Of a DNA stretch of 64,000 nucleotides, positions 22,482 to 29,335 are shown in pieces. Each line of letters begins with the position of its first letter. The first letter of the stretch is position 1. The translations under genes and the position numbers were made by a program. Location: assembly GCA_946894095.1 (NCBI GenBank), contig OX335641.1, positions 9,628,501 through 9,692,500 on the forward strand, given 5' to 3'. Below the pieces are notes generated by a model. It was given only the letters and a program-made list of their open reading frames with translations. It searched no databases and was not told where the DNA came from. The stretch is from Incurvaria masculella (taxonomy: Eukaryota; Arthropoda; Insecta; Lepidoptera; Incurvariidae).

Positions 22482-22582
22482 TCATTGTTTATTGGCGTGC
22501 TGCTTGTGTAGTCTTTCGAACAGTTGTGCCAGTGAACGCTTGCCAGGTGTGAAACCTCCATTCAAGTAGTTGTCGTCTCCTC
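22482..22582 (-). CDS. Peptide gene exon 7 (last half-peptide and tail)
   Basis: Encodes GGDDNYLNGGFTPGKR, completing peptide 5 with Thr for Asn, then SLAQLFERLHKQHANKQ and TGA. The tail replaces the ring half found in exons 2-6, so exon 7 is the founder 3' end. Confidence 0.82.
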
Positions 22583-25500
22583 CTAAACAATATTGTATTT
22601 GTTAATCATATTGCAATCATATTAATATTGCACATGACAACATCGTCTAGACAATACATTAGGGAGGAACACACAGTTAGGCAGCTACCGTTTTTTAAAA
22701 TGTAATAAGTCCGTTACCCCGGCCGTAGAGATGACGCGGAGTAACTTGCGCAAATACGTCCTACTACTGCGCAACCATGTAAACGATCGTTGCTTAGTGA
22801 AAGTGTGAGCAAAAATCGCTCGAGCCCGTTGCAGACGATCCGCAGTAGCAGCGCAAGTGCTAATTTTGCGAATCGTATGAATGGTGTTTGCGTACGTATG
22901 TAACTTAATTGAACGAGCAGTTACAAAAATCAATAAAAGAAAATGGTACGAACATTTTAAAGCTATTTATTTAATTTGTAGTCTTATTTACCAGAGCCGG
23001 CAAGTTGCCCGTTGACGCAGCCCTCGTCCCACATGTTGACACAGCGCTTGCCCGGATTGAAACCACCATTTAGGTAGTTGTCATCACCACCTTAAATAAT
23101 AGAAACCTTTAAGAAGCAGACAACCGTATCACTCGTCTGAAAATTCGTCATCCAGGTATTTTATAACTGTAAGGTGGCCCTTCCAGGCGGGACTAACTCA
23201 TTCGAAGGCACGGCACAAAACCGTGCTATTGCGCTCTGGGACCTTCTCTGTTTCAAAATACCGGCAAAGTGCGAGTCGTACACGCACACGAAGGGTTCCA
23301 TACCATCAAATTTCAGCTGCCTACCTATTACGGTTCATGAGATACAGCCCTGTGACAGACGGCAGGACGGACGTACGGACAGCGGAGGCTTAGTAATATG
23401 GTTCCCTTTTTCACCATTTGGGTACGGAACCCTAAAAAGGACAGGCTCCGTGATAAGGAGGATGCAACATGTCTACAAAGGAAGATAATACGGAGAGATA
23501 ATGCGTATAGTGTTTGATTTGGTAACATTTACGAAAATTTTGATTACAAAACGACTTATAGCTAATAGTAGGTAAACCACGACCGCTGTAGTCAAAAATC
23601 TAACAAAAAGCAATTTTTTTATAAATGTTCATGAAACAAGCTATGTCTGATGACAATTTTTTAAGAGGTTTTTATTTTATTGTTGAGTAATCCACCTCCA
23701 AAGATAATGTATAAAATGAGCGGAAAAAATCGAACTTTTAGGACCTTATAACATAGAATCCAAACACTATTTTACAATGCCAACGGTAATCAGACATCTA
23801 GTTCGATCAAATAAAGCTGTATAGTTTGAGTATAAATTTGGATCTCTGACGAGAAATTTGCGCACGATTGTGTGTTATGCCTTCCCACGGTTTTAAATAA
23901 TTTAAATTTTAAAATGACATTAAATTATTCACAATGAATGTAACATATATGGTGACTATTTTCAACCGTTGAGGCTTGCCGTGGTTCGGATTCCACGTAA
24001 ACTGTACGTCCCTTTCCTTACTTACTAGGTGGTAGGATTAATTCCGCCCGGGTTGGTACTATCGCATTGAATGAACGATGGTTGAAGCGGCAATGAAAAT
24101 TATCCGTGTTTTCCATGCAGTTCAATGTGCGTTAGGCTAATATCTGACAGTCAGTTCGGTATTAGCCATCCATGTCCAGTGACATAAAAAGATGTATAAT
24201 ACCGCGAAACAAGGACACATTAATTAAAGAAAGAGCCCAGTAAAAATAACTACTTTACCAATATACTGCAAGGCTGGACCCGAACCAGCAAAACATACTA
24301 TTCGCGGGTATTGCGTCTACCAATTTCGCCACCTGCTGTATACCCATAATTTATAATTCTGCAACAGTCCCTCCCCCGTAATCTATGCCTCCTACTAACA
24401 CAGTGCTTAAGATTATACCTACATACATTAAATTAACGCTTCATCTGCGTTGCGGACATTTACTGCAAAGATTGGGCGAATGACAAAATAATGTACTGAG
24501 CTCTTTTTTAATTAATGTGTCCTTGCTTCACGGTATTATACATCCATACATATTATATTCCTTGTTGTGTATTATGATTTCAACATTTCTAACCGAACGA
24601 ACAAAATTATAGCGCATCATATGTCGACCAACTCCTCTCTACCTCCTTCGTGGTCGCAGGTTGATTTATTGATAAATAATAATCAGTTTTAATATAATCT
24701 AAATTATCCTTTTAATTTGATCACAAAAATGGTCTAACCAGAGCCGCCGAGTTGACCGTTGACGCAGCCCTCGTCCCACATGTTGACACAGCGCTTGCCC
24801 GGATTGAACCCGCCGTTTAGGTAATTATCATCTCCACCTAATTTAAAAATAGGTGAGCAACACAGAAATATAATTTAAAGGCCATAATCACGAAAATATT
24901 GTTTAAATAAAAGCTGTCATTGGGCAGGTAGACAATACGAGTATCTCTGGGTAAATGCACACTTGTGTAGCTTTCAAAGGGTCGGGAACATTAACCTTTG
25001 GGGCTTATTCTTGCAGCGATTCCAGGATGAAAATTGTTAATCTCCTAATCCTAAACACAGTAAGCTAACTATTATCCGAGAAGGAACTGGCCAAAACGTT
25101 ATGATAAATATTGACAAAAACAACAACAGAACAATATTGATAAGAACGTTTAACGGCCTAACTATCCATGCACCGCAATCTCACCGTATTTTTTCCAGAA
25201 GAAGAAAAGGAAAAAGAGGAATTGTGGTAATTTTCTTCTGTTTTGTTGACAAAGTGATACATGTATGCGACTCACCAGAGCCGGCGAGTTGCCCGTTGAC
25301 GCAGCCCTCGTCCCACATGTTGACACAGCGCTTGCCCGGATTGAACCCGCCGTTTAGGTAGTTGTCATCTCCGCCTAGACGATAAGATTTATAGGTAGAT
25401 ACCTACCGTTTGTTCTTAATATAACTAAAACTTTGAAATGTCACTTTGCGAAAATATAAATGTGGGTGGTTGAACACAAAAGTATTCAGGACTAGAACTT

Positions 25501-28500: not shown

Positions 28501-29335
28501 CTTTTTCAGATTGCGAAAATAGTAATCACTTCAGTAAATGCATCACTGAGACTTTAGATGCATCTGCTGACGTTTCTATGAGTTTACAGTGTCTGAAATG
28601 TATCAATTCGGATTCACCTTAGTCAAAACCATTTAACTGTGGTAGTTCGATCCAGAAACACCTAAATTAGTGACGATTTTCTAGCCCATACAAACTTTGC
28701 GATGTCCTTTGTTAGGTACATATCACATTGTTGTACATATATATTGCTTTACATTACAAAAATATTCTTGAGTCAATATTTCATGGAAAATATTTCTTGT
28801 TTAAGATCTGCTATGATATTTTTTATTGCCAAAGGTGGCTCAATCCGGCGGCACTAACTCAATCGCGGGCACGGTACAAAACCGTGCTGTTGCGCTCTGG
28901 GACCTTCTCTGTTCCAAAGAAAATAACAGGCTCCGTGATGAGGAAGACGCAACATGTCCACAAAAAAGACAATGTGCATAGTGTATGATTTGGTAAGATT
29001 TACGAAAAATTCGAAATTACGAAAAACGATCGCCGAAGTGTCGCGCCACTGGGCTATTGAGGCTGACGAAATTACTTATACACGAACGACGAACTTATAC
29101 ACGGCAAAGATATAAACTACCCAATTATAAAGTCAGTATTTCATGGAAATTATTTCTTGCTTTTTAATTTATGATCGAAGTACGATTCCATGGGGTGGTT
29201 CATGCATGGCCCATAATTAATTATTAATATGACCCATGCTTCCAAAATGACCATACCTGAAAGCCGGTGATGTGGAAGAACATATTTTCCAAAAGCCAAC
29301 GTTACAACTCCGAACAAGAATACAAAGCACTTCAT
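22482..29335 (-). CDS. Multicopy cyclic amidated-peptide precursor (whole gene)
   Basis: Seven exons: 29335-29257, 27575-27510, 26969-26871, 25374-25276, 24837-24739, 23090-22992 and 22582-22482, all joined in phase 1, giving 213 residues. A signal peptide (MKCFVFLFGVVTLAFG) leads to a spacer ending in RR. Then come five tandem peptides, each CVNMWDEGCVNGQLAGSG continuing into GDDNYLNGGFNPG and released by KR. A short tail (SLAQLFERLHKQ...) ends the protein. Each peptide would be 30 residues with one C1-C9 disulfide and a Pro-amide from the Gly. Peptide 1 has INGQ, peptide 4 has QLGGSG and peptide 5 has FTPG. An N-terminal ring plus a C-terminal prolinamide at about 30 residues is the calcitonin-type plan; I infer a secreted neuropeptide or hormone but do not recognise the gene. 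Confidence 0.8.
22992..23090 (-). CDS. Peptide gene exon 6 (99-nt repeat unit)
   Basis: Same 33 residues as exon 3. Acceptor TTTAAG, donor GTAAAT. The MITE at 23,171 inserted 80 bp upstream of its acceptor. Confidence 0.85.
23171..23890 (+). mobile_element. TTAA-type MITE copy with nested insertion
   Basis: Starts 'aaggtggcccttcc' and follows the family consensus (gcgctctgggaccttctctg). It is interrupted at about 23266-23436 by a different repeat (starting near 'ccggcaaagtgcg', ending 'gggtacggaaccctaaaa'), then continues to near 23890, where the right TIR is lost. Confidence 0.65.
23965..24190 (+). repeat. SINE copy 5 (body)
   Basis: SINE body in forward orientation (ccgcccgggttggtacta, gaagcggcaatgaaaa, ttagccatccatgtcc) within an intron of the peptide gene. 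Confidence 0.6.
24191..24544. mobile_element. MITE with ~36-bp TIRs enclosing a tRNA-like sequence
   Basis: The inverted ends share 'gatgtataatacc' and 'aaggacacattaatta' with about two mismatches. Minus-strand sequence inside (about 24345-24265) reads like a leucine-type tRNA: 'ggtggcgaaattggtagacg' then 'ggttcgggtcc'. Confidence 0.6.
24739..24837 (-). CDS. Peptide gene exon 5 (99-nt repeat unit, A-to-G variant)
   Basis: Same unit, but the stretch after the ring reads QLGGS instead of QLAGS. Acceptor TTAG, donor GTTAGA. Confidence 0.85.
25276..25374 (-). CDS. Peptide gene exon 4 (99-nt repeat unit)
   Basis: Same 33 residues as exon 3 with only silent changes. Acceptor TCTAG, donor GTGAGT. 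Confidence 0.85.
25385..26865. other. Intron of the peptide gene, no supported gene
   Basis: A 197-codon plus-strand frame (25701-26294) lies here. It shows no motif, has low-complexity Tyr/Thr/Ser stretches and I regard it as chance. The rest is AT-rich intron. Confidence 0.4.
26871..26969 (-). CDS. Peptide gene exon 3 (99-nt repeat unit)
   Basis: 33 codons, phase 1 at both ends: GGDDNYLNGGFNPGKR, then CVNMWDEGCVNGQLAGS. It ends one peptide and starts the next. Acceptor TGTAG, donor GTAATT. Confidence 0.85.
27110..27178 (+). ncRNA. Candidate pre-miRNA-like hairpin
   Basis: A 29-nt arm (27110-27138) and its near-perfect complement (27150-27178) flank an 11-nt loop. There is one A-C mismatch and one G-U wobble. 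It lies in the intron between exons 2 and 3 of the peptide gene. Size and pairing fit a precursor microRNA, but a short palindromic element would look the same. Confidence 0.35.
27510..27575 (-). CDS. Peptide gene exon 2 (first ring)
   Basis: Encodes GLQRR, CVNMWDEGCINGQ and LAGS between a CAAACAG acceptor and a GTTAGT donor. The RR gives the first processing site. This exon lacks the Pro-amide half present in exons 3-7, so it looks like the founder 5' end. Confidence 0.8.
28430..28500 (-). repeat. tRNA-like SINE head fragment
   Basis: On the minus strand 'tagtgcaacgcgctgggcg' followed by 'ggtcagaggttcgcgcc' resembles pol III boxes A and B. No SINE body follows. Confidence 0.35.
28833..29035 (+). 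repeat. TTAA-type MITE, 5' fragment
   Basis: Begins 'aaggtggctcaatccggcgg' and matches the first 160-200 bp of the family. The rest is missing. It sits in intron 1 of the peptide gene. Confidence 0.6.
29257..29335 (-). CDS. Peptide gene exon 1 (signal peptide)
   Basis: Encodes MKCFVFLFGVVTLAFGKYVL and PHHRLS, then splits a Gly codon at a GTATGG donor. The hydrophobic core and small residues before K17 make a good signal peptide. An upstream in-frame ATG (29362) would add nine polar residues in front of the signal, so I prefer 29335. Confidence 0.8.

Follow-up and report, generated by a model that had tools for sequence, protein, structure and literature searches.

A probable calcitonin B gene encoding five near-identical peptides in the moth Incurvaria masculella

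A stretch of 64,000 nucleotides (nt) from the genome of the moth Incurvaria masculella (assembly GCA_946894095.1, contig OX335641.1, positions 9,628,501 to 9,692,500), here called the window, harbors on its minus strand, at 22482-29335, a candidate calcitonin B gene whose seven exons, as read from the sequence, join into a 642-nt open reading frame of 213 amino acids. This gene is almost certainly the lepidopteran calcitonin B, an ordinary member of a known family and not a new hormone, as the features of its predicted product suggest. A sequence-only reading of the same DNA had proposed a possible new insect peptide hormone that matched no known family; both proposals had to be given up, since the features agree with calcitonin B as it was described in 2014 (Veenstra 2014, PMC4237046) and close homologues are present in many lepidopteran genomes. 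The likeness to calcitonin-type peptides noted in that reading pointed to the right class, that of a secreted-peptide precursor under purifying selection with its nearest relatives in Lepidoptera. The result gives the candidate hormone the name calcitonin B and supplies a complete five-copy precursor with its exon structure.

The precursor begins with a hydrophobic, signal-like N-terminus (recognised as a signal peptide by eye), followed by a short propeptide ending in LQRR, five units and a C-terminal tail, SLAQLFERLHKQHANKQ. Each of the five units consists of 31 residues (30 plus Gly) and is followed by KR. Units 2 and 3 are identical in their residues, unit 1 carries Ile in place of Val, unit 4 carries Gly in place of Ala, and unit 5 ends in FTPG, where the other four end in FNPG. 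The two N-terminal Cys, predicted to form a ring, were found in 5/5 units, as was the C-terminal Pro-Gly followed by a single KR (NPGKR in four, TPGKR in one), and all four junctions between units read PGKRC. The earlier account of seven same-phase exons, a 642-nt frame, a signal-like start, an RR site and five 30-residue peptides followed by KR was thus accurate, with GT-AG borders in 6/6 introns, and so was its statement that both Cys were kept in the five copies; the FNP end plus Gly and the NPG-KR site were correctly described for four units and wrongly for unit 5. A pattern coding for the ring (up to 3 mismatches) occurred five times in the window and in none of 100 shuffled versions. Moreover, PGKR was found nowhere in the window besides the five known sites, and tblastn of the window gave no extra or decayed unit outside the known exons; scanning for the combination of ring and Pro-Gly returned nothing, but such a scan is blind to units split by introns and is hence no test. 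When the whole genome (31 contigs with a total of 552,006,686 bases; the window is C1:9628501-9692500) was searched at the DNA level with the repeat exon, the five matches all corresponded to exons 2-6, with no second copy of the gene. At the level of the predicted gene model, a real seven-exon gene encoding five near-identical peptides was confirmed.

The search for homologues in other Lepidoptera, advised in the sequence-only reading and run here with the precursor, retrieved 25 proteins (E up to 1; 7,996 candidates scored), of which 19 belonged to Lepidoptera (including Ostrinia, Eumeta, Heliothis, Plutella, Spodoptera, Mythimna and Bombyx), four to Coleoptera, one to the cat flea and one to an unnamed source. 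The Bombyx protein LOC101739144 matched with an E of 5.2e-55 and 69% identity over 62% of the query, and the Tribolium protein LOC103313049 with an E of 4.6e-18 and 53% identity over 35%; both contained the PGKRC junction. A profile search extended the set to 68 proteins and brought in leaf beetles, a second Tribolium gene (TcasGA2_TC003590), the dragonfly Ladona fulva, the soldier fly Hermetia and the mayfly Cloeon, and a second profile search gave 42 proteins at E up to 0.1. In an alignment of 15 sequences, four Cys columns were invariant and two nearly so, and the Cys, Pro-Gly and dibasic sites were kept in the aligned units across insects. Between 1 and 7 ring-bearing units per protein were counted in the 27 proteins examined with a pattern requiring both Cys and Pro-Gly; Cys-less units are also present in some beetle precursors. 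The number of units differs among moths, with five in the window precursor, three in Bombyx and four in Ostrinia. Tails of the form SL..L...L, resembling SLAQLFERLHKQHANKQ, were observed in Spodoptera exigua, Heliothis, Plutella and Pectinophora. When the Ostrinia homologue was run against viral contigs, nothing matched, and peptide stretches used as text queries of the literature yielded no paper on insects among those listed.

These matches can be compared with the published description of the family. Veenstra (2014, PMC4237046) set out an arthropod calcitonin gene, apart from DH31, whose peptides carry an N-terminal disulfide ring and a C-terminal Pro-amide. Calcitonin B, in particular, occurs in several copies, with the gene present in Lepidoptera and Coleoptera. 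According to the same account, Tribolium has two calcitonin genes, termites produce calcitonin A and B peptides via alternative splicing, the Ladona gene closely resembles the termite gene with both kinds of peptide, Holometabola have the B form only, and cleavage at an unusual Pro-Gly-Lys-Arg-Cys site is apparent in Tribolium and Bombyx (PMC4237046). The search results match the points stated for Lepidoptera and Coleoptera, Tribolium, Bombyx, Ladona and Holometabola, which supports the calcitonin B identity. At that time calcitonin B was known in silico only, and the cut between Pro-Gly and the ring Cys was left without explanation in the parts of the paper considered here (PMC4237046); the calcitonin name was applied in later papers to peptides of beetles, the red palm weevil, tenebrionids and decapods. 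The window units share with the B units of Bombyx LOC101739144, Tribolium LOC103313049 and TC003590, and Ladona LFUL015045 the length of about 30 residues per repeat, the seven residues between the Cys, the PG-KR ends and the PGKRC junction, and several moths have the SL..L...L tail in common with the window precursor. In the Ladona model LFUL015045, one B unit is 55% identical to a window unit, and upstream of the B units lies an A-like peptide that shares 43% identity with the Locusta calcitonin A sequence given in PMC4237046; this evidence comes from one gene model, which may be misjoined. No A-like exon was found in the window, where a locust A query hit the B exons and otherwise produced nothing but short, weak matches. 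Insect calcitonin A resembles the window unit in its N-terminal ring and C-terminal Pro-amide, and differs from it in the ring itself and in the core. Vertebrate calcitonin and CGRP likewise have an N-terminal disulfide ring, and calcitonin ends in a Pro-amide, whereas their ring is shorter and their core helical, in contrast to the Gly/Asp-rich core of the window units. The vertebrate peptides are not known to occur in tandem copies.

Two observations concern the range and decay of the units. A Hermetia illucens protein (P0066) bears one calcitonin B-like unit at its end; sand flies were the only Diptera with a calcitonin gene named in the parts of Veenstra (2014, PMC4237046) considered, and the Hermetia unit may widen the dipteran range of calcitonin B. 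In five butterfly proteins (P0014, P0018, P0019, P0020 and P0023), the units and their KR are followed by a short degenerate ring-like remnant that replaces a further full unit.

As for its processing, the precursor would lose the signal peptide and then be cut at RR, at the KR of the four PGKRC junctions and at the fifth KR after unit 5, which would release five 30-residue peptides. Gly-directed amidation and ring closure would follow, as expected from sequence rules and by analogy with the published family. The peptides would most likely be made mainly in midgut endocrine cells, midgut expression of calcitonin B having been reported for other insects, and would signal, as hormones or locally, through a class B (secretin-type) G protein-coupled receptor (GPCR), probably of the BNGR-B3 group, which the literature offers as a candidate. 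BNGR-B3 was placed in a nematode and arthropod cluster that occurs mainly in the Malpighian tubules and midgut of insects (Cardoso et al. 2014, PMC3961327), and co-occurrence of calcitonin B and the candidate receptor across insects was reported (PMC4237046). As of 2019 the receptor of calcitonin B had not been formally deorphanised in insects, and no deorphanisation was apparent in the portions of later literature considered. In the genome of I. masculella, 13 exon-level 7tm_2 matches were obtained, some of them adhesion-type by eye, and the open frames of two were set against solved structures. For the strongest match (L006) the best relative was the calcitonin receptor, which would fit a calcitonin B receptor and equally the DH31 receptor; for L011 the nearest structure was the glucagon receptor. 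In a family that is understudied, a defined 30-mer (predicted cyclic CVNMWDEGCVNGQLAGSGGDDNYLNGGFNP-amide) puts the receptor question within direct test.

Several points weigh against the calcitonin B identity and the proposed role in the gut. The identity stands on agreement with several stated features and not on a labelled sequence, and the gene and its peptides are predictions from the genome sequence of I. masculella. No match was called calcitonin under the names listed, and the UniRef name of the Bombyx and Euphydryas entries is 'Temptin', probably an automatic name. The similarity to the A type is weak, the window unit being 21% identical to the A-like peptide of Ladona over 29 residues. 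Mass spectrometry of the central nervous system of Tenebrio and Zophobas missed the calcitonins, a table of Manduca midgut peptides includes DH31/calcitonin-like peptides and, in the parts seen, no calcitonin B, and the parts seen of the Chilo peptide lists do not contain it either. Finally, in 2008 BNGR-B3 was without known ligand and was discussed as possibly regulating juvenile hormone synthesis (PMC2516173), a link by which the gut may not be the sole target.

Other explanations have been weighed against this evidence. A peptide hormone family restricted to Lepidoptera and unrelated to calcitonin would agree with the names of most named homologue entries, 'uncharacterized' or 'hypothetical', and with database searches of the precursor, which gave no Pfam family above its curated cut-off and no relative among solved structures at E up to 10. 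(Two Pfam matches, Orthopox_F6 and DUF2846, were under the curated cut-offs and were judged chance.) But homologues extend beyond Lepidoptera to beetles, a flea, a dragonfly, a mayfly and a soldier fly, and the agreement with the 2014 description of calcitonin B (PMC4237046) makes such a family very improbable. Near-identical Gly-rich repeats, in a precursor whose peptides are predicted, would also suit a repetitive secreted structural protein of silk, glue or gut lining. We consider this no more probable than a new family, since each of the 27 proteins has just 1 to 7 ring-bearing units, the Cys, Pro-Gly and dibasic sites are conserved among insects, the C-terminal peptide is distinct and non-repeated, and calcitonin B is reported to co-occur with its candidate receptor across insects (PMC4237046).

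The remaining alternative, that the gene encodes the calcitonin-like diuretic hormone DH31, draws on a calcitonin-like name, a similar length near 30 residues, the C-terminal Pro-amide and a class B GPCR (PMC4237046). DH31, however, lacks the ring, is encoded by a separate gene and has several dibasic residues past Pro-Gly, and the calcitonin gene was set apart from it by the predicted disulfide (PMC4237046), whereas the window units carry two Cys (5/5) and a single KR right after Pro-Gly (5/5). A Spodoptera frugiperda table also places DH31 and 'Calcitonin-B/DH30' at different loci. The chance of DH31 is judged close to nil. The label 'Calcitonin-B/DH30' was considered as a direct naming of the family and was downgraded to weak support, because DH30 elsewhere denotes a Manduca diuretic hormone.

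The predicted exons of the calcitonin B gene, all on the minus strand, are joined in phase 1 throughout. Exon 1 (29257..29335) contains the start codon (ATG at 29335), the signal-like N-terminus and the start of the propeptide, and ends at the donor CAG/GTATGG, in phase 1 into exon 2 (27510..27575), which encodes the LQRR cleavage site and the N-terminal half of unit 1, with the ring CVNMWDEGC. The four internal exons that follow, each of 99 nt and phase 1-1, encode the C-terminal half of one unit, KR and the N-terminal half of the next: units 1 and 2 in exon 3 (26871..26969), units 2 and 3 in exon 4 (25276..25374), units 3 and 4, with the Ala to Gly change, in exon 5 (24739..24837), and units 4 and 5 in exon 6 (22992..23090). 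Exon 7 (22482..22582) comprises the C-terminal half of unit 5 (FTPG), KR, the C-terminal peptide SLAQLFERLHKQHANKQ and the stop codon. The window units are thus divided among exons of 99 nt; in the termite, by comparison, just two coding exons of the B transcript serve for three units, according to a figure legend (PMC4237046). The introns measure, in order, 1681, 540, 1496, 438, 1648 and 409 nt. That all splice sites were kept, as had been claimed, was borne out by the GT-AG borders and by the donors, which in a comparison with a simple consensus reached 7 of 9 in five cases and 6 in the other; only 10 of the 429 GTs in the gene scored at least 7, including these five. The acceptors, which were inspected only, had a modest pyrimidine content (0.41 to 0.71). 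By eye, a possible polyadenylation signal, AATAAA, was read at 22401..22406 (minus strand), 75 nt 3′ of the stop codon, and a possible core-promoter element, TATAAATA, at 29422..29429 (minus strand), about 90 nt 5′ of the ATG.

Comparison of the units with one another revealed that nonsynonymous divergence (dN) ranged from 0 to 0.060 in 10/10 pairs, far below the synonymous divergence (dS), which ranged from 0.28 to 1.70 in nine pairs and was saturated in the tenth; mostly silent differences had indeed been taken as a sign of selection. At the fourfold sites of the four internal exons, 66 of 87 comparisons agreed (76%), against a mean of 58% when codons were shuffled within amino acids, the observed value being reached in 0/3,000 trials. 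The 50-nt intron flanks agreed at a mean of 14/50 positions (12 comparisons), against 12.9 (standard deviation 3.3) for random pairs, and local alignments of the 400-nt flanks gave scores from 18 to 27, where the background had its median at 20 and its 95th percentile at 26. One pair was an outlier (22/50 agreement, score 27), namely the introns that follow exons 3 and 5, which possibly retain a trace of a shared flank. On the whole, similarity is maintained far better among the exons than among the introns, a contrast that gene conversion, silent constraint, or an old duplication with fast intron turnover would each fit.

The similarity of units within a species was then considered at the protein level across 13 lepidopterans, including the window and requiring at least three intact units per species. 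All five window units found their best match inside the window, and 26/42 units overall had a unit of their own species among their best matches, which indicates that homogenisation varies by lineage. Concerted evolution as a general rule at this level was rejected, with 0/3 such matches each in Bombyx, Anticarsia and Cydia. This count left out Nymphalis, Vanessa, Danaus and Manduca (two units each), P0014, P0016 and P0020 were among others not entered, and one Eumeta unit was lost, split by an apparent retained intron. Among the papers listed, none dealt with concerted evolution of the calcitonin B gene. In Bombyx, isoform X2 differs from X1 only in lacking 21 residues, the counterpart of exon 2 in the window, and this annotated model suggests that exons like exon 2 can be skipped. 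It is tentatively proposed, with rather less than even confidence, that the lepidopteran calcitonin B array may be composed of interchangeable 99-nt phase 1-1 cassette exons, each coding for the last part of one hormone and the first part of its successor, so that the frame would be kept whatever number is included, and that the exons may be homogenised in some lineages by gene conversion or a silent constraint hardly reaching the introns. If so, splicing could tune the hormone dose per transcript.

Other elements were observed within and around the gene. Intron 2 contains, at 27095-27195, a very stable hairpin with arms of about 43 nt and 11 nt between them (-65.2 kcal/mol on the plus strand and -59.5 on the minus strand; z about -12.8), which is MITE-like (miniature inverted-repeat transposable element) or microRNA-like and had no Rfam match at the gathering threshold. 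Diverged copies of one interspersed element, 86-87% identical in two matching pieces, lie in intron 5 (23171-23479) and intron 1 (28832-28964). Upstream of the calcitonin B gene and on the same strand, formin exons extend over 38674-52814, with two FH2 pieces above the Pfam cut-off and one FH2 and one Drf_GBD below it. Several near-identical tandem copies of the formin GBD exon, in differing frames, were seen by eye within a few hundred bases at 52156-52837 (minus strand), and represent either a local duplication or an assembly artefact. On the plus strand, a non-LTR (long terminal repeat) retrotransposon occupies 8574-13795, with a zinc-knuckle frame (by eye) and a stop-free endonuclease-reverse transcriptase frame of 1249 codons; a CUPID domain (36.7 bits) is encoded by an open frame at 14180-15847; and pieces of a mariner-type transposase were found at 54309-54970, with HTH_48 above the Pfam cut-off and DDE_3 below it. 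A transfer RNA gene was identified with Rfam at 21720-21792 on the minus strand (48.6 bits).

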